A DNA stretch of 64,000 bases from Actinomycetaceae bacterium (GTDB lineage: Bacteria; Actinomycetota; Actinomycetes; Actinomycetales; Actinomycetaceae): NCBI GenBank assembly GCA_030530685.1, contig JAUMUM010000001.1:124001-188000 (forward strand). Reading direction: 5' to 3'. Shown in pieces: positions 458-22,617 of this stretch; within the stretch, counting starts at the first letter, position 1, and the number at the start of each line of letters is the position of its first letter. The notes beneath the pieces were generated by a model, which was given only the letters and a program-made list of their open reading frames with translations, was not told where the DNA came from and ran no database searches. Position numbers and translations under genes: made by a program.

Positions 458-2164
458 TCAGACCTTTGCCTTAGGCGCGAACTTCTCGTCGCGCCCACCG
501 CCGGCCTGGTCGCTGCCCGCCTCACCCGGGCCTTCTTCGGCGGCGTCCACAGAACCAGCCTGCCCACCGTCCGGGCCTTCGGGCAGAGCCACGTCCAAGC
601 GAGCGGTGTCCGCCCGCAGCCTTCGCAGCAGGTTGGTCACCAGGATCATGACGACGATCGTGAACGGCAGGGCGCCGATGATCGTCCCCGTCTGGATCGT
701 TGACAGGGCCTCTTCTCCTCCAATGAGCAGGAGGTTCAGGGAGATGCCGACGATCATGGCGACCAGAATCGCGCGGAAGATGGCCGAGGGCCTCGCCCCC
801 ATCGTCACGAAGGACGACAGCGCATGCACGCCAGCGTCGAGCGACGTGATGAAGTAGGTGGCCACGAGCACCGTCGCCAGAATGACCACGAAACTTCCCA
901 CGAGCGGGATGTGCTCGGCCATGGCGAACAATCCCTTAGAGACGTCATCGTTCACGGCTTCGGAGATGGCTCCGTCGGTCTGGGGGTCGTACCTCAGGGC
1001 GGTTCCGCCAAGGATGGCAATCCACACGACGACGATGACCGAGGGGATGGCAATGACGCCCAGGATGAACTCGCGAAGCGAACGCCCGCGCGAGATCGAG
1101 GCGATGAAGGAGGCGACGAACGGCGAGAACGCGAACGTCCAGCACCAAATGAACACCGTCCACGTCCCATTCCACGTGTCACCCATCCCTGCCGTTGCGG
1201 GGTCAGTGTAGAAGGACATGTTGAGGAATCGGTCGATGTATTCCCCGAAGGACTGCGGCAGCAGGTGCAGCAGGTACACCGTCGGGCCAAAGACGAAGGC
1301 GACGACGATGAGCAGGATCGACAGGATCGAGTTGGCCTCCGATACCCGCTTCATCCCCTTGTTCACACCGTAGAACACGGAGACGCCCGTGATGAGACCG
1401 ATGACGGCGATGACCGTCGCCTGCACGGCTCTTGAGGACTCTATTCCGGTCGCTGCCTCCAGTCCGGACGTGAGCTGGAGGGAGGCGAATCCGAAGGACG
1501 TCGACAGCCCGAACACCGTCGTGATGATGGCGATGAACTCAATGACGACGCCGGCCGGACGGCGGGCCTTGTCACGGAAGAGGTCCTCGCACGCCCCGCG
1601 GAACGTCGGCTTCTGATTGCGATTGTGAGTCGAGTAGGCGATGCACACCGCCACGATGCAGTAGATGGCCCAGCCGGTGATGGCCCAGTGGAAGTAGGAC
1701 CACCCCAGCGCACCGTCATCGGTACTCCGGTCTGGCGTCAGCGGGTCGCCACCGTCTTTGATCATGATCGGCTCGGCGACCGACCAGAAGATGAGCGCCA
1801 CCCCCTGCCCGCAGGCAAAGAGCATCGAGTACCACGCGAACCGCGAGTACTGCGGCCGCGCACTCGGCCCGCCCAGCCGGACGCCACCAAAACGGCTGAA
1901 CGCGAAGTACAAGCAGAAGACCAGCGCAAGCAGGGCCATGACCACGAAGTACCACGTCGTGTACTGGTTGACCCACGCTCGCACACCCCTGATGATGTCA
2001 GCCGCGGTGCCGGAAAAGGCAAGCGCCAGGACGACGACCAGCGCGATGACGACGACGGCCGTCACGCGGATCAGGAGGTCGTCGGCCCGTCGATGCTCCG
2101 CAAGCGGATCATCGAGCTGCCTGACGTCGAGTTCGTCGTAACGCTGCTCGGTGTCAGAACTCAC
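458..2164 (-). CDS. BCCT-family transporter with altered aromatic box
   Basis: This is a 568-residue secondary transporter of the betaine/carnitine/choline family, with about 12 hydrophobic segments and the family signature (FSPFVASFIASISRGR, then SLREF). I place the start at GTG 2164, with GGAGG 9 bases upstream and an 11-base overlap with the creatininase gene; the frame stays open to 2233. In transmembrane segment 4 the aromatic residues HW-4x-W-2x-Y (about 159-168) are kept. In segment 8 the family pattern WAWWISWSPF reads WCWTFAFSPF (about 340-349), so two tryptophans that bind trimethylammonium groups in BetP are Thr and Phe here. That suggests a substrate other than glycine betaine; from the neighbours, creatine or creatinine is a reasonable guess. 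Cytoplasmic membrane protein, last gene of the cluster. Confidence 0.9.
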   Translation of the reverse strand: MSSDTEQRYDELDVRQLDDPLAEHRRADDLLIRVTAVVVIALVVVLALAFSGTAADIIRGVRAWVNQYTTWYFVVMALLALVFCLYFAFSRFGGVRLGGPSARPQYSRFAWYSMLFACGQGVALIFWSVAEPIMIKDGGDPLTPDRSTDDGALGWSYFHWAITGWAIYCIVAVCIAYSTHNRNQKPTFRGACEDLFRDKARRPAGVVIEFIAIITTVFGLSTSFGFASLQLTSGLEAATGIESSRAVQATVIAVIGLITGVSVFYGVNKGMKRVSEANSILSILLIVVAFVFGPTVYLLHLLPQSFGEYIDRFLNMSFYTDPATAGMGDTWNGTWTVFIWCWTFAFSPFVASFIASISRGRSLREFILGVIAIPSVIVVVWIAILGGTALRYDPQTDGAISEAVNDDVSKGLFAMAEHIPLVGSFVVILATVLVATYFITSLDAGVHALSSFVTMGARPSAIFRAILVAMIVGISLNLLLIGGEEALSTIQTGTIIGALPFTIVVMILVTNLLRRLRADTARLDVALPEGPDGGQAGSVDAAEEGPGEAGSDQAGGGRDEKFAPKAKV

Positions 2165-2918
2165 GCTCAATCGCCTCCACCATTCCATCGGAGGCAACCT
2201 GTAGGAGGATCTCCCCCTTCTCGCGCGTCGCATTCGCCGCGGAGGAAAGACAGCCAGACTCCGGCGTCAGATCCGGATTGATGGGCAGGATGTCGTAGTT
2301 AGGCATAACGGCGGGAGGAGCATCGATGACGGCGTCCATGTTCACCATTTCCGGATGCAGAAGGAGCATGAGCGACGTCTCCAGGACGCCCCCGTGCTCC
2401 AGGTCCCATCCGGTAAAGCCCTCGGGGTAGAGCTTTTCGATGGTGTCGTCGCCCACGAAATCCCAGTAGGACAGGAGCACCGCCTTGGCGTCGTCGATAC
2501 CCTGGAGCTTGAGCTCGCGCAGGGCTAGGTCGACGCCCTCGAATAGGAACTGGTAGTTCTCAAAATGGCCGTTGCAGAACACGAACTTGCGAACGCCGTG
2601 AGCGGCCAGCTCGAGGGTGATCTCCTTCGCGAGGCTAATGAACGTGGTGCCGGTGAGCGACGTGGTGCCGCCCAAGTGGTAGCCGCCGCCGGACCTTTGC
2701 TGAGACTTGTAGCCGAAGCCGATCTGCGGGCCGACGATGCCACCGACCTTCCTAGCGACGGCCTCAGCCATGTCCCCCGAGAGGAGCTCGTCCACGCACA
2801 GGGGCATGTGCGGGCCGTGCTGCTCGAGGGAACCGACTGGAATGATGACCACGGGATTCTCGGCGACGCGCTCACGGTACTGGAACGCGTCCATGTACTT
2901 CATTCTTACAGTGTCCAT
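2154..2918 (-). CDS. crnA: Creatininase (creatinine amidohydrolase)
   Basis: This 254-residue protein is very similar over its whole length to my recollection of Pseudomonas putida creatininase, including GYKSQQ-SGGG, LSYWDFV, YPEGF-GWD-EHGG and a C-terminal SREKGE-like stretch. The metal ligands are all present (numbering from ATG 2918): Glu32, His34, Asp43, His118 and Glu120. The active-site tryptophans of the SYWDF and GWD motifs are also kept (about 152 and 171). The enzyme interconverts creatinine and creatine in the cytoplasm. The close match makes a real creatininase more likely than other family members such as mycofactocin-type hydrolases. A GTG directly before the ATG (2921) is an alternative start; AGAGAGAG precedes both. 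No creatinase or sarcosine oxidase gene is nearby. Confidence 0.88.
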   Translation of the reverse strand: MDTVRMKYMDAFQYRERVAENPVVIIPVGSLEQHGPHMPLCVDELLSGDMAEAVARKVGGIVGPQIGFGYKSQQRSGGGYHLGGTTSLTGTTFISLAKEITLELAAHGVRKFVFCNGHFENYQFLFEGVDLALRELKLQGIDDAKAVLLSYWDFVGDDTIEKLYPEGFTGWDLEHGGVLETSLMLLLHPEMVNMDAVIDAPPAVMPNYDILPINPDLTPESGCLSSAANATREKGEILLQVASDGMVEAIEREF

Positions 2919-2952
2919 CACTTCACTCTCTCTTAGACAGACTCACTTATTT

Positions 2953-4029
2953 CTACACCTTCATTTTTTCGGCTTCCAGCGTGGGCTGTCCCCCGGGTGT
3001 TTCGTTTTCATTGGCCGCGTCGCCGCTTTTGATCTTTTTGCCGTTGCCTCTAGTCGAGAGGTAGACCTGAGAGACGCCTCCACCGATAATGAGGAGGCCA
3101 CCGAACATCTGCAGGAGCGTCAGGCTTTCCGAGAAGAGGAAGAAGCCGAGCAGCGAGGCCATGATGGTCTCCTGGTAGGAAATGGTCGCCAGTTCGCCAG
3201 CCAGGAGGATGCGGGCAGCGACCGTCAGGAAGTAGAAGGCGCCGAAGCCCGTGATGAGCGCCGCGATGACGAGCACGGTCCATGACTGCCCGTCCATGCT
3301 GGTAATGCTCCAAGCGTGGGTGACCTGCTGACCGTCGGCGTCCCTGACTGCTTCGGGAACCCCGTTGGCGTTCCTTTCGCGCAGCGGGTAGGTCAGGCCC
3401 GACCAGCGGAAGAGCAGCATGATCGCGATGGTTCCGGCAGCGAACATGAAGTTAAACCAGGAGCGGACGTTCGAGTCGAAGTCCGTGCGGTAGCGCGACA
3501 CGAACAGGTACAGGCCGTAGGCAACGCCAGAAAGCAGTGCAATGAGGTTTCCGGTCATGTACTGCGGATCCAGGTCGAGGCCGATGCCGTTTTCCGAAAT
3601 GACCTGAACGATGAGCAGAGTTCCGACGAGAACCGCCGCGAGGGAGCCGAGCATTGAGAGCTTGAACGGCTCCTTGAGGAATATCGTTGCGAGAATCGTC
3701 GAGTACACCGGCCCCGTGTAAATGAGGAACGAGGCATTGGCCAGCGTCGTGTACTGGGTCGAAATGACGTAGAGCGACGAAAGCAACCCTAGGAAGATAC
3801 CCGAGAACAGGATCGCGGGAGAGAACCTCTGCGCCCTAACCTTCTTGAAGCCGCCAATGAATACAAAGATGACGGTCATTCCGATGAAGCCGGTGAAACT
3901 ACGGCAGAAGGCGATGAAATCGCCCGGTGCATTGATGTAGCGCGCGAAAGCCCCAATGCCACCCATGAGGGATGACGATAGGAACATGAAGCCAAAGCCC
4001 TTGAGCTTTTGCACTGACTCGGAATTCAC
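2953..4029 (-). CDS. EamA/DMT-superfamily transporter (first paralogue)
   Basis: A 358-residue polytopic membrane protein with about ten transmembrane helices in two EamA repeats; FLIYTGPVYSTILA and a C-terminal LLIIGGG stretch are typical. The start is taken as GTG 4029, with AAGGA 8 bases upstream; the open frame extends to 4176, but the extension is polar and lacks a ribosome site. It is a clear paralogue of the protein at 4265-5329 (both share a NA-FLIYTGP segment and similar length). The cytoplasmic tail is polar. The substrate cannot be read from sequence. Its place among creatinine and arginine genes suggests movement of a pathway intermediate or end product such as sarcosine. Confidence 0.85.
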   Translation of the reverse strand: MNSESVQKLKGFGFMFLSSSLMGGIGAFARYINAPGDFIAFCRSFTGFIGMTVIFVFIGGFKKVRAQRFSPAILFSGIFLGLLSSLYVISTQYTTLANASFLIYTGPVYSTILATIFLKEPFKLSMLGSLAAVLVGTLLIVQVISENGIGLDLDPQYMTGNLIALLSGVAYGLYLFVSRYRTDFDSNVRSWFNFMFAAGTIAIMLLFRWSGLTYPLRERNANGVPEAVRDADGQQVTHAWSITSMDGQSWTVLVIAALITGFGAFYFLTVAARILLAGELATISYQETIMASLLGFFLFSESLTLLQMFGGLLIIGGGVSQVYLSTRGNGKKIKSGDAANENETPGGQPTLEAEKMKV

Positions 4030-4156
4030 TTGAATATTCCTTTCCACGACGGCACCAACGATGCTGGCTGCCGCAACCCGGCCCACCTTCCACGAAATCC
4101 GGTGTCCTGCCGGCAACGTGCTTCGGGCGCTGTGGTCGTTGTTTGTGTTATTCGCC

Positions 4157-4215
4157 GTGCGTTCAAGAGAACGCACCGGCTCGGCCGTCGGCAGTTACCA
4201 CTGACGGCCGAGCCG
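4157..4215 (-). other. Two tandem intercistronic hairpins
   Basis: Two abutting perfect inverted repeats lie between the transporter genes: 4157-4163 with 4170-4176 (7 base pairs, 6-base loop) and 4177-4189 with 4203-4215 (13 base pairs, 13-base loop). Neither is followed by a T-run on the minus strand, so they look more like processing or stability elements, or an attenuator, than a simple terminator. Confidence 0.55.
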
Positions 4216-4264
4216 TCTTCCCCGGCCTCGATCGAAGATCCAGGTCAGAGAAAGCTTGTATGCG

Positions 4265-5329
4265 CTATATACCGGCCGAGACCTTCTCGACGCTCTCTCG
4301 CTCCTCGACGTCCTCGCCTGCCGAAGCATTCTTTGCGTTCTTTCGCGAGGTCATATCGATGACGATCGGCGCGAGGCCTCCACCCACGATCAACAGTCCC
4401 CCGAGGATACCGGTGCGCGTAAGGGTCTCGCCCCACACGAGCAGACCGCAGAGGATCGCGACCGGGCATTCCCAGTAGGCAATGGTCGAGTACTCGACGG
4501 CAGGAAGATTCCGGCCGGCAACCACGAGGAAGCCGAGCGCGAAGAGCCCGCACACGAGGAAGAGCCCGACGGCCCACGCCCAATTCCTCCCCTCGAATGT
4601 CGACACACCGTGCCACGGCCTGAGTATGATCGACATGCTCAGGGTCGCGACCATCGCCCAGAAAAAGTTCCAGACTCCTCGCACGACCGAGTCGATGTCC
4701 TTGCGGTAGCCGTTAAAGAACATGGCCAGTCCGTAGAAGACACCGGACGCCAAACCGAACATGTCTCCCAGGCCCTTCTGCGGAAACTCGCTCGACGACG
4801 TCGAAAGATCCAGTCCAAAAAGGCGGTCGCCATCAAAGTCGATGACTCCGATCGTCAGCAACATTCCGATGAAAACGAGGAACAAGAAGAAGGCGGAAAG
4901 AGGCTTAATCTTCTCCTTACGGAAAATGGCCGCCAGAATCGTGCAGAAGAGCGGGCCGGTGTAGATGAGGAAGACCGCGTTGGTAATGGAGGTCATGAGG
5001 GTGGAGGAAATGTAGAAGCCCAGGGATAGGCCAATGCACACTCCACCGAAAATCACGGAGGGACTAATGCGAGTTGAGCGGAATAGGCCGGCCTTCTTCG
5101 TCAGCCACAAAATGAGGAGGAATCCAATAAGACCCGTTGTCATGCGGCCAAACGCGAGGAATGAGCCGATGACGGACTTGTCGTCTTCCGCCAGGCCCGA
5201 GGTAGCTCCACGGCTGAGGGTTCCCACCAGGCCCATACCCGTGGCGGAAAGGAGCATGGCGATAGCGCCAAGCTTTTTGTTCATACGGTAGTCACTGGAT
5301 GCGCGTGTTACGACGTCGGTGTCGGACAT
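4265..5329 (-). CDS. EamA/DMT-superfamily transporter (second paralogue)
   Basis: A 354-residue membrane protein with about ten hydrophobic segments and the EamA pattern (NAVFLIYTGPLFCTILAAIF near the middle). ATG at 5329 is chosen because it matches the family N-terminus; the frame runs up to 5509 only through the amidinotransferase gene. The ribosome site is weak (AAGAAAG). The pair of related transporters in one cluster could be two separate carriers or partners. There is no arginine-ornithine antiporter (arcD) in the cluster, so these proteins and the BCCT carrier are the only visible transport functions for the pathway. Confidence 0.85.
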   Translation of the reverse strand: MSDTDVVTRASSDYRMNKKLGAIAMLLSATGMGLVGTLSRGATSGLAEDDKSVIGSFLAFGRMTTGLIGFLLILWLTKKAGLFRSTRISPSVIFGGVCIGLSLGFYISSTLMTSITNAVFLIYTGPLFCTILAAIFRKEKIKPLSAFFLFLVFIGMLLTIGVIDFDGDRLFGLDLSTSSSEFPQKGLGDMFGLASGVFYGLAMFFNGYRKDIDSVVRGVWNFFWAMVATLSMSIILRPWHGVSTFEGRNWAWAVGLFLVCGLFALGFLVVAGRNLPAVEYSTIAYWECPVAILCGLLVWGETLTRTGILGGLLIVGGGLAPIVIDMTSRKNAKNASAGEDVEERESVEKVSAGI

Positions 5330-5355
5330 GGCGTTTCTGACTTTCTTTGCGGGGC

Positions 5356-5392
5356 TTTGGTGGCCCCGCAGCAAAGCTGCGAGGCCACCAAA
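5356..5392 (-). other. Strong intercistronic hairpin after the amidinotransferase gene
   Basis: A 10-base perfect outer stem (5356-5365 with 5383-5392) encloses a second perfect 6-base stem (5367-5372 with 5376-5381) and an AAA loop. There is no T-tract on the minus strand. It begins 8 bases past the stop codon of the amidinotransferase gene, a place where RNA 3' ends are often stabilised. Confidence 0.55.
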
Positions 5393-5399
5393 TCGACAC

Positions 5400-6527
5400 T
5401 CAGACGAGCGTCGGATCTTCGATCTGGTTCGGGAAGTAGTCCTCGCAAGTACCCTCGCGGTAGACGTCCGCGGTCGCACAGTGCAGACCGCCGCCGAAGG
5501 CGTAGGCATCGCGGAACGGAACCGGGATGACGTTCATTCCCAGTTTGTCCATCTGCTCCATCTGGTGGACCTCGCTGGCCTCGACACACACCGTCTTGTG
5601 GTCGATGACCAGGCAGTTCATGGACAGCCACACGGAGGAGTAGCACAGCGGAGGCGGCGTGTCGTGCGCCGGCATTGCCGCGTCGACGATCTGCCAATCG
5701 TTGGCCTCGAAGATCTTGCGCTGCTCCTCGGGCAGGCGGCGGTGCGGGTTGTTGATGATCAGGCCCGGACGCAGCGGCACGAAGGTCGCGTCGATGTGGA
5801 TCGGGTAGGGATCACCGGGGAAGTTCACCGCGTGTACCCGCAGCTCGGGGTAGTAGCGCTTGAACCACTCCATGGCCTTGCGGTTAGTGGTCAGGCCGTG
5901 CTGGATGAACAGGTCCTTGCCAACGCGCATGACGTCGGCCGCGTCCCACATGGGCTCAACTTCGGTCGTGACGAAGTCCTTGTTGGCCGTACGCTCGAGG
6001 CGCTCCTCAAGGGAGATCTTCTCGTCGTAGTAGTTGTGCTTGTAGGACTTGTCGGTCAGGCGCGGACGGGGTGCCTGGGTCCACTTGAACTCCGGATCCT
6101 CTTCGAAGTACTCGTTCATGAGGTCCCAGTAGGCCAGGTACTCGAAGTAGCGGCAGCGGAAGGAATTCGCCGAGGACATGATCTCGTTGCCGATGGTGAG
6201 CAGGATGTCACGCGGAGGCATCTGCGTGAATCCAGACTCCGTGCGGAAGTCAGGCGTCGTAATGGCCTGGTTCCACTGCAACGGCGTCGGACGATCCACC
6301 TTGACGCCCAGCCCCTCGAGGATCTTGACGTAGTTATCCAGCTGCTCATTGGCGGCCTCGACCGTGGCAGTGGGGCGCGGGCCCCACATGCCGCGCATCT
6401 CGGAATCGATCGGCACCTTCTCCGAGGTTGCGGGCTCCTCCGGCGGAATGACGGAGAAGTCTGCACGGCCGACGATGACGTGCTTGAGCGGGTCAAAGTC
6501 GTTCCATGAGTTGACAATTTTAGCCAT
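5400..6527 (-). CDS. Glycine amidinotransferase-family enzyme (AGAT-like)
   Basis: A 375-residue member of the guanidino-modifying superfamily, closest to arginine:glycine amidinotransferase. The catalytic triad seen in human AGAT is present: Asp in MWDAADVMR (195/198), His244 in HIDATFVPLRPG, and Cys350 in GGGLHCATADVYREG. AGAT moves an amidino group between arginine and glycine, giving ornithine and guanidinoacetate, through a covalent amidino-cysteine; the reaction is reversible. Here the gene sits between arcC and the transporters in a cluster that also holds creatininase. My inference is that it may run from creatine (or guanidinoacetate) to ornithine, making arginine for ArcA. Guanidinoacetate synthesis is the alternative. 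AAGGAG precedes ATG 6527. Confidence 0.88.
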   Translation of the reverse strand: MAKIVNSWNDFDPLKHVIVGRADFSVIPPEEPATSEKVPIDSEMRGMWGPRPTATVEAANEQLDNYVKILEGLGVKVDRPTPLQWNQAITTPDFRTESGFTQMPPRDILLTIGNEIMSSANSFRCRYFEYLAYWDLMNEYFEEDPEFKWTQAPRPRLTDKSYKHNYYDEKISLEERLERTANKDFVTTEVEPMWDAADVMRVGKDLFIQHGLTTNRKAMEWFKRYYPELRVHAVNFPGDPYPIHIDATFVPLRPGLIINNPHRRLPEEQRKIFEANDWQIVDAAMPAHDTPPPLCYSSVWLSMNCLVIDHKTVCVEASEVHQMEQMDKLGMNVIPVPFRDAYAFGGGLHCATADVYREGTCEDYFPNQIEDPTLV

Positions 6528-6548
6528 TTATCTAACTCCTTCTCATTT

Positions 6549-6673
6549 CCGGCAAGCTACTTCGCTTACCGGTTTGTGGACGTGTGAGCGTCCATCGGTT
6601 TCCTCCAAACAGCCGGTGTCGAAGGAAGTTGGGTCTCGTGGGGCCGTAGTCCGAAGGCCCACCGCCCCACGAG
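6549..6673 (-). other. Two hairpins between arcC and the amidinotransferase gene
   Basis: The 150-base gap holds two inverted repeats: 6635-6644 with 6664-6673 (10 of 10 bases, 19-base loop with a possible inner pairing) and 6549-6557 with 6564-6572 (8 of 9 bases, 6-base loop). The second ends shortly before the ribosome site of the amidinotransferase. No T-tract follows either one. Confidence 0.5.
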
Positions 6674-6679
6674 TGAATG

Positions 6680-7600
6680 TTACGCCGGGTACTTGCCGTC
6701 GCGAGTGATGATCGTTCCGGCCTGACCAGCGATGATCTTCTGGGCGTCCGCCAGGCGGCCGATGGCAGCGACGCCACCGGTAGCCTCAACGAACTGGCAG
6801 GCGGCCTCGACCTTGGGACCCATGGAACCGGCGGCAAAGCCCTTGCCACGCAACTCCTGCGGGGTCGCCCGGGTGATTTCACTCTGCTCGGGCGTACCGA
6901 AGTTCTCCATCACGGCGGGAACGTCCGTCAGGATGATGAACATGTCGGCTTCGAGCTCTTCGGAGAGCACGGCGCCCGAACGGTCCTTATCAATCACGGC
7001 CTCGACGCCGACGAGCTTACCGTCGACGCGCTTGACCGGAATACCGCCACCACCGGAGCAGATGACGGTCGTGCCATTGGAGACGAGCTCCTTGATGGTC
7101 TTGATCTCAACGATCGACTTGGGGATCGGCGAGCCCACCACGCGGCGGAAGTATTCGCCGTCGGCCTTCATGACCCAGCCGCGTTCGGCCTCGAACTCCT
7201 TGGCCTGCTCCTCGTTGTAGACCTCGCCGACGAACTTCGTCGGGTTGTCGAAGGCCGGGTCGTCGGCGTCGACCAGCGTCTGGTTGACCGTGCAGACGAC
7301 CTCGCGGTCCGGCAGCGCGTTGCCGAAGGCGTGCTGCAGCCAGTAGCCGATCATGCCCTGGGTCATGGCGCCGAGGGTGTCGAAGGGATAGGGCTCGGAG
7401 AGCTTCGCATCGTTGGCCGACTGGAGGGCGATGACGCCGACCTGCGGGCCATTGCCGTGCGTGACCACGAGCTCGTGCTCGGCCGCCAGGGGCGTGAGCG
7501 CGTCAACAGCGATGTTGACGTTCTCAATCTGGGCCCTAGCGTCGGGTTTCTGGCCGCGCTCCAAAAGAGCGTTGCCACCAAGTGCAACGACGATCCTCAT
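6680..7600 (-). CDS. arcC: Carbamate kinase
   Basis: 306 residues, the usual length, with the amino-acid kinase start VALGGNAL, the GNGPQVG motif near residue 53 and the CSGGGGIPV segment. It converts carbamoyl phosphate and ADP into ATP, CO2 and ammonia, the energy-yielding step of the arginine deiminase pathway. It starts 3 bases after the arcB stop, so the two are co-transcribed and probably translationally linked. A stem-loop region separates it from the next gene. Confidence 0.96.
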   Translation of the reverse strand: MRIVVALGGNALLERGQKPDARAQIENVNIAVDALTPLAAEHELVVTHGNGPQVGVIALQSANDAKLSEPYPFDTLGAMTQGMIGYWLQHAFGNALPDREVVCTVNQTLVDADDPAFDNPTKFVGEVYNEEQAKEFEAERGWVMKADGEYFRRVVGSPIPKSIVEIKTIKELVSNGTTVICSGGGGIPVKRVDGKLVGVEAVIDKDRSGAVLSEELEADMFIILTDVPAVMENFGTPEQSEITRATPQELRGKGFAAGSMGPKVEAACQFVEATGGVAAIGRLADAQKIIAGQAGTIITRDGKYPA

Positions 7601-7603
7601 CTC

Positions 7604-8605
7604 TCACTCCCCAAGGGTGGCGACCATGACCGCCTTGATCGTGTGCATGCGGTTCTCGGCCTGGTCGAAGACCACGGAAGCCTCGGACTCGAACACGTCG
7701 TTGGTCACTTCCATCGACTCCAGGCCCGTCTTCTCGTAGATGTCCTCGCCCACAACGGTGTTGCGGTCGTGGAACGCGGGCAGACAGTGCAGGAACTTGG
7801 CGTTCGGGTTGCCCGTGGCGTCCATGAGCTCCTGGTTGACCTGGTAGTCCTTGAGCAGGGCGATGCGCTCGTCCCAGACCTCCTTGGGCTCACCCATGGA
7901 GACCCACACGTCGGCGTAGAGGAAGTCGACTCCCTTGACACCTTCCTTGGGATCGGAGGTGTGCGTGATCTTGCCTCCGGTCTTTGCGGCGATCTCCTTG
8001 GCCTTGTCGATCCACCTCTGCTCATTCCACAGCGACTCAGGGCCGACAATGCGCACGTCCATGCCGAGCATGACGCCCATGATCATCAGCGAGTTGGAGA
8101 TGTTGTTGCGGCCGTCGCCGAGGTAGGCGAAGGAGATCTCGTTGTAGGGCTTGCCGGAGTGCTCCTTCATCGTGAGCGCGTCGCACAGCATCTGGGTCGG
8201 GTGCCAATCATCGGTCAGGCCATTCCAGACCGGAACCCCGGACAGCTCGGCGAGGGTCTCGACGTGCGCCTGGGCCTTGCCGCGGAACTCGATTCCGTCG
8301 TAGTAACGGCCGAGCACGCGAGCCGTGTCCTCAACCGACTCCTTGTGACCCATCTGCGAAGATACCGGATCCAGGTAGGTGATCTTCGCACCCTGGTCGT
8401 AGGCCGCAACCTCGAAAGAGCAGCGAGTACGGGTCGACGTCTTCTCGAAGATGAGCGCGATGTTCTTGCCCTTGAGGTGCTGCTCCTCCGTGCCGTTCTT
8501 CTTCGCGGCCTTCAGCTCCTCAGAGAGGTCGAGCAGCGAGAGCCACTCCTCGGGGGTGAAATCCAACTCCTTGAGGAAGTGACGACCGTATAGCTCGTGC
8601 TTCAT
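7604..8605 (-). CDS. arcB: Ornithine carbamoyltransferase (catabolic)
   Basis: 333 residues. The carbamoyl-phosphate site STRTR is at 57-61 and the ornithine-binding HCLP motif at 273-276. In this setting it runs phosphorolytically, from citrulline and phosphate to ornithine and carbamoyl phosphate, returning ornithine. That ornithine could serve as amidino acceptor for the enzyme at 5400-6527. AAGGAG precedes the ATG, in the 47-base gap after arcA. Confidence 0.96.
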
Positions 8606-8652
8606 TCAGTTCTCCTTATATCTGAGTAATTCACGAAATAGGATGGTTTTCC

Positions 8653-9876
8653 CTAGATCCCGACACGCTGCGTCGGGCAGGACATGCAACGCGGACCACC
8701 ACGTCCACGGCCGAGCTCGGAACCCGCGACCGATAGGACTTCGATGCCCTGGTCACGGAGGTAGGAGTTGGTTGCAACATTGCGCTCGTAGCCAACCAGC
8801 ACGCCCGGGCGAATAGTGAGGAAGTTGCATCCGTCATCCCACTGCTCACGTTCGGCGGCGATGGAGTTCTGCGGCGTCGTCAGCACGCGAATCTCCTTCA
8901 GGCCGAGGGCATCGGCGATGACATCGTGCATCTTGTCCGGTTCGTTGAATGTGACGTCCAGCTTACCCGACGACTCCCCGGGGCGAATCGTGTTGGAGGC
9001 CAGCATTCCGAGATTGCCATACTTGGTGAACGACTCTTCGTCGACCATCGTCATGACCGTGTCAAGGTGCATGAGCGCCCTTTCCGACGGCATGTGCAAC
9101 GCGATGACCTGATCGGCACGACCGGAATCAAAAAGCTGCCGAGCCAATCGCTCCACACCCTGCGGGGTCGTGCGCTCGGACATTCCGACCAGCACCTTCC
9201 CGCGTCCGATGACCAGGACGTCTCCGCCTTCGATGGAAGCGGGACCTTCCCCGTTACCGGTGCTCCAGCGATTGAACTCGGCATCTGCGAATCTGGGATT
9301 CCAGCGGTACATGGCTTCGAAGTTCACCGTTTCGGGACGACGAGCCGGCATTCGCATCGAGTTGATTGCCACGCCGTCGTACACCCAACAGGACGTGTCG
9401 CGCGTGAACAGATGGTTCGGCAGCGGCGGCAGAACGAAGTCATCCTGTCCGAGCATATCGAGTACCACCGATTTGGGATCTCCGACCTCGTCGAAGAGTT
9501 CCTGCTTCAGCAGGCCACCGACCAGAACCTCGGCGAGCCTGGACGACTCGAGGCGATCGGCGTAATTGCGAAGCGCGTCTGTGGCGGAAAGTCCGAATTT
9601 CCGCTCATCAATGATGTAGTCGAGGATGTACTTGCGTGCCTCCGGAATGTCGAGGGTCTCGGTGAGCAGATCCTGGAACAGGAGGACTTCAATCCCTTCG
9701 TCACGCAGCAACTGAGCGAAACCGTCATGCTCCTTCTGCGCCTCTTCCAGCCACACGATGTCATCGAAAAGAAGCTGATCCTTATTCGATGGAGTCAGCC
9801 TAGCAAGTTCGATCCCAGGACGATGAAGGATCACCTGGTCAAGTTTGCCGACCTCAGAATCGACGCGGTACGTCAT
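8653..9876 (-). CDS. arcA: Arginine deiminase
   Basis: 407 residues from ATG 9876 (a longer frame to 9927 lacks homology). Recognisable segments are the N-terminal [38 protein letters not shown], and the C-terminal GGPRCMSCP with nucleophile Cys397. It hydrolyses arginine to citrulline and ammonia. First gene of the cluster, so the promoter lies in 9877-10100. The weak ribosome site GTAGGAAC sits just upstream. Confidence 0.96.
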
Positions 9877-9945
9877 TGTTCCTACGCTTTCTCGTGCGTT
9901 CCACATCAGGTGCTTGCAGTCTGCCAATACTTAGTACTTACGTAC

Positions 9946-10000
9946 CAGGGCCTTTTGTCCTGGCGTCCCGAAACACCGGAATATTTGCGAATATTTCCGG
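9946..10000 (-). promoter_or_regulatory. Candidate control region of the arc/creatinine cluster
   Basis: Upstream of arcA, 9976-10000 is a 25-base element with 6-base inverted ends (CCGGAA and TTCCGG) enclosing two direct GAATATTT copies 10 bases apart, one helical turn. A second small inverted repeat (CCAGG...CCTGG) is at 9946-9964. Such helically phased repeats fit an operator. The regulator is unknown, as no regulatory gene adjoins the cluster. Confidence 0.35.
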
Positions 10001-10616
10001 TACAACCGTACCTGATTGGGTGCTCGCTGTCACGTTCACTCGGTATCGAACGCCACATTGCGTTTTCTCACCACGGCATTACCTCCGTCCAGAAATGACG
10101 GACCAATGAAGCGGCGCTCGCCTCAGACAATCTTCGCGCCAGCTTCACTCTACGAAACACATCGAATCGAAACGATTAGCCCATCTGGAACCGACGATTA
10201 GACCGGATCGGCCAACCTTACTGAAGTTCCTGCGGGTCACCTGTCTTTCCCCGCGGTTAACCTCTCCAGACGGGCGGGCCGAACTTTGTGGCTCCGTTCA
10301 CCTTTGCCCGTCAGCCTCGCTCGTGCCCCGACGGAAGCCACTGCGCAATGCGACAGTGCATGTGAAGCGCCTGGCGGGATATGCCGACAGGACAGGGACA
10401 GCCCACCAGCGCGAATCACGGGCACGAGTATCTCGACACCGTAGCAGAACGCCACGCCGGCATCCCAACCACCGCAAAACCAACTCGGCGGGGAAATCGG
10501 CACCGCGAGTGCCGCCGGGCTAAACTGAGCAGCGAAGTGTGCTGCGTTCGGCAGCACATCGTCTGCCTCGACCATTACGACATCAACGTCGACCACTTAC
10601 GACCCGAAGGAATGCC
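10001..10616. other. Long non-coding gap between arcA and deoD
   Basis: This is the remaining part of a 740-base divergent gap. Frames here are short and have no recognisable protein content. TAAACT at about 10518-10523 may be the -10 box for deoD, but no good -35 is visible. I see no riboswitch consensus or tRNA. Confidence 0.4.
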
Positions 10617-22472: not shown

Positions 22473-22571
22473 ATGCACCCGGCCGACGTGGCGAGTGCGC
22501 CGTGTCAGCCCGGTGGGCCGGCCAAGCTCATGCACCCGGCCGGCTTGACGAGTGCGCCGTGTCGGCCCGGT
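22473..22571. repeat. GC-rich direct repeat, 57-base period
   Basis: Two copies of a 42-base sequence starting ATGCACCCGGCCG (22473-22514 and 22530-22571) differ at five positions. They lie in the convergent gap between the aldolase and the RNA-repair gene. Confidence 0.7.
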
Positions 22572-22617
22572 TCATGCCCGGGCACGGCGCGCATCCGCGT
22601 CGCCCTTGCGCATACCG

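Follow-up and report, generated by a model that had tools for sequence, protein, structure and literature searches.

Why a creatininase should lie in one operon with the three genes of the arginine deiminase pathway is the question raised by a locus at positions 458–9876 of the window, the 64-kb stretch of DNA analysed here, which forms part of the 2.43-Mb genome (34 contigs) of an Actinomycetaceae bacterium, probably one that lives in the human mouth. An earlier note on this DNA had proposed that the genes combine into a cycle that leads from creatinine to ATP. In our study, the operon was found to be very probably a cassette for the fermentation of creatinine and creatine, in which the amidino group is transferred to ornithine and enters the arginine deiminase pathway as arginine. 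The proposed cycle was supported by each of its genomic predictions that could be tested, namely the linkage of the genes, the absence of creatinase, the presence of alternative partners of creatininase, and the joining of arcABC to the amidinotransferase in unrelated genomes. What would be new is a further way into arginine deiminase metabolism, assembled from known reaction types. The earlier note knew of no such pathway, and the open-access literature was also found to contain no description of creatine amidino transfer into the arginine deiminase pathway, subscription papers and preprints being outside the search.

The operon contained eight genes, all intact and all on the minus strand, which confirmed the cluster of arcA, arcB, arcC, an amidinotransferase, a creatininase, two EamA carriers and a BCCT carrier that had been read from the window before. 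From 9876 down to 458 the order was arcA, arcB, arcC, amidinotransferase, EamA1, EamA2, creatininase and BCCT, followed by a TetR-family regulator. The arginine deiminase gene arcA (8653–9876) matched NF002381 with 526 bits (cut-off 414) and TIGR01078 with 481 bits, below the cut-off of 489, and was the single match in the genome. The ornithine carbamoyltransferase gene arcB (7604–8605), for which the catabolic direction is proposed, matched TIGR00658 (424 bits) and NF003286 (525 bits) and contained the HCLPAF motif; the carbamate kinase gene arcC (6680–7600), the proposed ATP-yielding step, matched NF009008 (434 bits) and TIGR00746 (378 bits). The gene at 5400–6527 encoded a protein resembling arginine:glycine amidinotransferase (AGAT), with 42% identity to human GATM (7.8e-80), and is proposed to be a creatine:ornithine amidinotransferase. 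Both EamA carriers matched PF00892; EamA1 (4265–5329) followed the amidinotransferase in most clusters, and EamA2 (2953–4029) stood directly before creatininase in nearly all creatininase clusters. The creatininase gene (2154–2918) matched TIGR04448 with 330 bits (cut-off 235). The BCCT-family carrier (458–2164; PF02028, 462 bits), a proposed importer of creatinine or creatine, was found with creatininase in several genera. Its start codon is uncertain, as the open reading frame opens at 2233 and a GTG at 2164 is the candidate start; with this start the gene overlaps creatininase, and the intergenic gaps of the operon were mostly short. The TetR-family gene (PF00440, PF17940) begins at 212 on the same strand, reaches position 1 and continues beyond the window (L023:9613-10212); it lies outside the cluster as first drawn and forms the 3' end of the clusters of most relatives. 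No arcD arginine/ornithine antiporter was present within the operon; an arcD-like gene (TIGR00905, above the cut-off) was found 128 kb from it. Since the gene arrangement is conserved across dozens of genomes, a chance neighbourhood is excluded.

In the proposed pathway, the BCCT carrier, or an MHS/ProP-type symporter in relatives, would import creatinine or creatine, and creatininase would open creatinine to creatine. The amidinotransferase would then convert creatine and ornithine to sarcosine and arginine, which is AGAT chemistry in the arginine-forming direction. ArcA would convert arginine to citrulline and ammonia, ArcB would convert citrulline to ornithine and carbamoyl phosphate, and ArcC would use carbamoyl phosphate to give ATP, CO2 and ammonia, while sarcosine would leave the cell, probably through an EamA carrier; for EamA1 either sarcosine export or sarcosine/creatine exchange is proposed. 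The net reaction would be creatinine + 2 H2O + ADP + Pi -> sarcosine + 2 NH3 + CO2 + ATP. No arginine/ornithine antiporter would be needed, because ornithine is recycled as the amidino acceptor. The distant arcD-like antiporter suggests that free arginine, too, is probably broken down by this one arcABC set.

The co-occurrence of the gene families, which the earlier note had offered as a check, was examined in 200 Actinomycetaceae genomes. The amidinotransferase was present in 66 of them, with a weak 67th match in G071, and 22 contained a true creatininase. Both genes were found together in 19 genomes, that is, in 19 of the 22 creatininase genomes (Fisher p about 6e-8), and they were at most 3 kb apart in 18 of these 19; in the exception, G067, they lay on separate broken contigs. 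The annotated neighbourhoods were modular: arcABC was followed by the amidinotransferase, then by one or both of two modules, the first made up of EamA1 with an MHS/ProP-type symporter (TIGR00883) and the second of EamA2 with creatininase and, in many cases, BCCT, and then by TetR. Actinomyces bovis (L150) contained both modules with one amidinotransferase each. Two tandem amidinotransferases were observed between arcC and creatininase in one genome of genus g22 (L087, G074), and G115 contained two separate amidinotransferase-creatininase loci. When 108 distinct amidinotransferases were placed on a tree, linkage to creatininase changed state at least 18 times; a single inherited event thus does not account for the association, and the linkage was repeatedly made or kept. 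In 105 of 160 rows of the amidinotransferase clade, one or more arc genes lay on the same strand at a distance of at most 6 kb, and in 75 all three did; these rows overlap between collections and are not independent genomes. Clusters of arc genes and amidinotransferase were present in Actinomycetaceae, Adlercreutzia, a dolphin-oral deltaproteobacterium and Crenobacter. The core of amidinotransferase, EamA and MHS carrier was commoner without creatininase than with it, so creatine and not creatinine is probably the general substrate.

The fate of creatine was followed through the search for creatinase. No Creatinase_N (PF01321) protein was found in the genome of the window, whereas the same model matched 13 of 14 control genomes; the textbook creatinase/urea route is therefore closed in this genome, and a hidden creatinase was ruled out by the same search. 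Of the 19 genomes in which the two genes occur together, 16 likewise had no Creatinase_N, the three exceptions all belonging to genus g22. Only three creatininase genomes (G128, G140 and G093) were without the amidinotransferase. In G128 and G140 a Creatinase_N gene lay 1–4 kb from creatininase, and that of G128 was a creatinase with 563 bits to 1chm. G154 contained two loci, one of creatininase with amidinotransferase and one of creatininase with creatinase (566 bits to 1chm; the range with G128 was 563–567). A Creatinase_N gene at 1–4 kb was thus common to the three creatininase loci of the Georgenia group that are without amidinotransferase, one each in G128, G140 and G154 (its second locus). 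In G093 the creatininase adjoined a cytosine-deaminase-family gene. At L119:7174-9227 a creatininase (39% identical) stood beside a cytosine-deaminase-family gene and an MHS carrier, which possibly represents a creatinine deaminase route. Each creatininase of the family was thus partnered with the amidinotransferase, with creatinase or with a deaminase-like gene, a pattern that would be expected if the first of these partners were another enzyme able to use creatine. For the further use of sarcosine, the genome gave no match to TIGR01373 (the beta subunit of heterotetrameric sarcosine oxidase, soxB) and none to PF07355 (GrdB-family glycine/sarcosine reductase), the latter model also having no match in any control genome.

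The creatininase was 55% identical to the Pseudomonas enzyme and retained E34, H36, D45, H120, E122, W154, W174, H178 and E183. The metal and tryptophan residues, reported as complete in the earlier note, were thus confirmed, and by its equivalog-level match to TIGR04448 the protein is classed as a true creatininase. The amidinotransferase had no match in the Pfam and NCBIfam searches; phmmer gave human GATM as its best solved relative. Its C350, H244 and D195 correspond to the catalytic Cys407, His303 and Asp254 of AGAT, and its D107 and D246 to the guanidino-binding Asp170 and Asp305; Cys350, His244, Asp195, Asp107, Asp246 and Arg263 were invariant in 161 clade rows. The pocket departs from that of GATM, with the flap residues Asn300/Met302 replaced by Tyr241/Ile243 and Trp352-Met353 by Cys295-Tyr296, all four invariant in the same 161 rows, and with Trp408 replaced by Ala, Ser or Cys. 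In AGAT these flap residues are important to the binding of substrate, and in CyrA they affect specificity (PMC4887976, PMC3684758), and we infer that the substitutions widen the space for the N-methyl group of creatine. Reversibility has been stated or shown for related amidinotransferases (PMC4887976, PMC3684758), one of them being described as reversible in PMC4887976, and this is consistent with the arginine-forming direction. Between genera the amidinotransferase was 82–97% identical, compared with about 40–80% for the arc, creatininase and carrier genes, and its silent divergence was only slightly lower. Its fourfold sites differed by 0.34–0.55, near or somewhat under the arc genes, so that recent transfer as the sole cause of the high identity was rejected and strong constraint is the better account.

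The clade of at least 81% identity extends to Eggerthellaceae of the gut and to some proteobacteria, where arc or creatininase genes again frequently accompany it. Named relatives at 82–97% identity were found in Actinomyces (oris, naeslundii, israelii, gerencseriae and bovis), Schaalia, Mobiluncus, Actinobaculum massiliense, Georgenia and Cutibacterium namnetense, in the Eggerthellaceae Gordonibacter, Raoultibacter, Rubneribacter, Enteroscipio, Slackia, Adlercreutzia and Parvibacter, and, among non-actinobacteria, in the betaproteobacteria Crenobacter and Craterilacuibacter and in one dolphin-oral deltaproteobacterium. Other actinobacterial amidinotransferases in a phylum-wide sample were at most 44% identical, and none of the five inspected had arc neighbours; the clade is therefore sharply bounded. 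Bacteria of the mouth, the urinary tract and the gut, Eggerthella lenta among them, thus commonly carry the cassette.

Two published studies on carriers of the cassette, neither of which was aimed at a creatine:ornithine amidino transfer pathway, agree with the proposed cycle. E. lenta DSM 2243 (G564) contained two copies, amidinotransferase-EamA2-creatininase-BCCT-MHS and amidinotransferase-EamA1-MHS-TetR. When E. lenta was added to a defined community, colonic creatine of gnotobiotic mice was lowered across diets, and the authors noted the creatininase and found no further creatine-degrading gene (PMC11149096). The genome has two Creatinase_N genes, and the M24 protein examined, one of the two, was of the Xaa-Pro peptidase type. 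The cluster of A. massiliense FC3 (L151) was arcABC-amidinotransferase-EamA1-MHS-TetR. Creatinine and creatine occur in urine. In urethral catheter biofilms the A. massiliense loci 01647–01650 (ArcA, ArcB, ArcC and amidinotransferase) were each more than 8-fold higher than in culture, and the amidinotransferase, which was among the most abundant of the listed biofilm proteins, was linked by the authors to polyketide synthesis (PMC6314084). We rejected this link, as no polyketide gene was conserved in the clusters. It is likely that creatine:ornithine amidinotransferase and the arginine deiminase pathway together form an undescribed, horizontally spread energy pathway, that this is a major way in which bacteria of the human mouth, urinary tract and gut break down creatine and creatinine, and that it explains the creatine consumption of E. 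lenta, for which an enzyme had been missing.

Several points weigh against fermentation of creatinine and creatine by this operon. Classical AGAT works poorly with creatine, as the earlier note had also stated, and no biochemical assay of the amidinotransferase clade was found in the open literature. The oral Actinomycetaceae probably meet modest amounts of creatinine. In A. massiliense the induction was seen in a mixed biofilm relative to rich medium, and creatine cannot be named as its cause; the cluster of this species is without creatininase. In mice E. lenta lowers sarcosine too, so that sarcosine may not simply accumulate. Most clusters are without creatininase, so that guanidinoacetate or some further guanidino compound could be the substrate in general. 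This last point leads to the alternative that the pathway is the same and that most carriers mainly use guanidinoacetate or a different guanidino acid as donor, with glycine or another amine as the product and creatine as a minor substrate except where creatininase is present. The enzyme is nearest to the glycine-type AGAT, which also speaks for such a donor. However, the creatininase-linked and unlinked enzymes share one pocket (Y241, I243, C295 and Y296, invariant in 161 rows), which makes one substrate likelier, and creatine is depleted by E. lenta (PMC11149096), in which the two types of locus occur together; we consider this alternative unlikely.

The amidinotransferase might instead run forward, from arginine and glycine or sarcosine to guanidinoacetate or creatine, as an osmolyte or a precursor, the latter linked to polyketides as suggested for A. 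massiliense. The enzyme was so named in PMC6314084. BCCT and ProP-like carriers, as families, are often osmolyte transporters. However, no polyketide or methyltransferase gene was conserved in the clusters, ArcA of the same operon would destroy the arginine donor, the co-selection with creatininase would be left unexplained, and E. lenta removes creatine and does not make it, all of which makes forward synthesis very improbable. Still less credence is due to degradation of creatine by a creatinase elsewhere in the genome, with arc and amidinotransferase genes as an unrelated arginine cluster. Creatininase with creatinase is the textbook route and is present in the Georgenia group, but this explanation is already contradicted for the genome of the window by the missing Creatinase_N, and it fits poorly with the same absence in 16 of 19 genomes and with tight linkage in 18 of 19. 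The remaining explanation, that creatine is mainly a source of arginine or nitrogen and that the arc genes serve a separate arginine catabolism, is distinctly improbable, if less so than forward synthesis. The same reaction yields arginine and an arcD-like antiporter is present elsewhere in the genome, but in many genera the amidinotransferase shares its operon with arcABC, whose products would break down the arginine formed; this explanation departs from creatine fermentation in emphasis only.

Upstream of arcA, a palindrome near TGGTAC-N4-GTACCA was found at 9932–9947 with one mismatch, and a second copy at 9998–10013 with two mismatches; the former is a candidate operator. In 75 loci 64 such sites were found, compared with three in shuffled sequence, and 54 of the 64 lay directly before arcA. 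The palindrome was present in 31 of 66 amidinotransferase-bearing genomes and in 10 of 134 others. It was seen upstream of arcA in L015, L059 and L065-L078, and also in L277-L280 and L285. In Actinomyces sp. S6-Spd3, the gene of an amino-acid permease that lies a short way past the downstream end of the cluster (L079:12637-14196) had its own copy. In some genomes the palindrome also preceded valyl-tRNA synthetase-like and proteasome-ATPase-like genes. Because of the sites before these genes and the permease, the regulator of the palindrome is not creatine-specific, and the palindrome was rejected as proof of a creatine-specific regulon. The TetR protein of the cluster is a candidate for the regulator acting at this site. 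Elsewhere in the window, ARAGORN predicted at 22497–22592 a gene similar to a tRNA whose anticodon would have four bases (catg); it is probably either an artefact or a tRNA that has degenerated.

In the clinic, kidney function is measured by creatinine, and creatine is a common supplement and a metabolite of brain and muscle. If the pathway is true, a microbial route that burns creatinine and creatine for ATP with release of two ammonia would bear on the loss of creatinine in the gut in kidney disease and on the fate of creatine supplements. It would possibly bear also on the ammonia from urease-negative urinary bacteria of the Actinomycetaceae, for which a case of Actinotignum schaalii was published without an agreed ammonia mechanism (PMC11747242). 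The proteins now filed as arginine:glycine amidinotransferase would gain a testable function, and the creatine loss caused by E. lenta would gain a candidate gene.

The arginine deiminase pathway, arcABC(D), comprises the three enzymes found here and yields ATP at the same step, and arcABC also stands in one operon here; the operon differs from it by the absence of arcD, by the proposed entry of the amidino group from creatine through the amidinotransferase, and by the recycling of ornithine, which would not be exported. The agmatine deiminase pathway, which E. lenta uses (PMC10234575), likewise leads from a guanidino compound to a carbamoyltransferase and carbamate kinase, but its own enzyme deiminates agmatine directly, with no amidino transfer. 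The route of creatininase, creatinase and sarcosine oxidase shares creatininase, the creatine intermediate and the sarcosine product, whereas its creatinase, absent here, hydrolyses creatine to urea and yields no ATP. Tissierella creatinophila likewise uses creatinine anaerobically via creatine and sarcosine; it differs by degrading sarcosine further with sarcosine and glycine reductases and by its genes for cytosine deaminase and N-carbamoylsarcosine amidase, and a creatine amidinohydrolase gene was not detected in its genome (PMC5364220). GATM, CyrA/AoaA, SxtG, HsvA, AmtA and StrB belong to the same enzyme family as the amidinotransferase of the window and have the same catalytic residues, whereas the clade of the window differs from GATM in its identity of 42%, its altered flap and pocket residues and its catabolic gene context.

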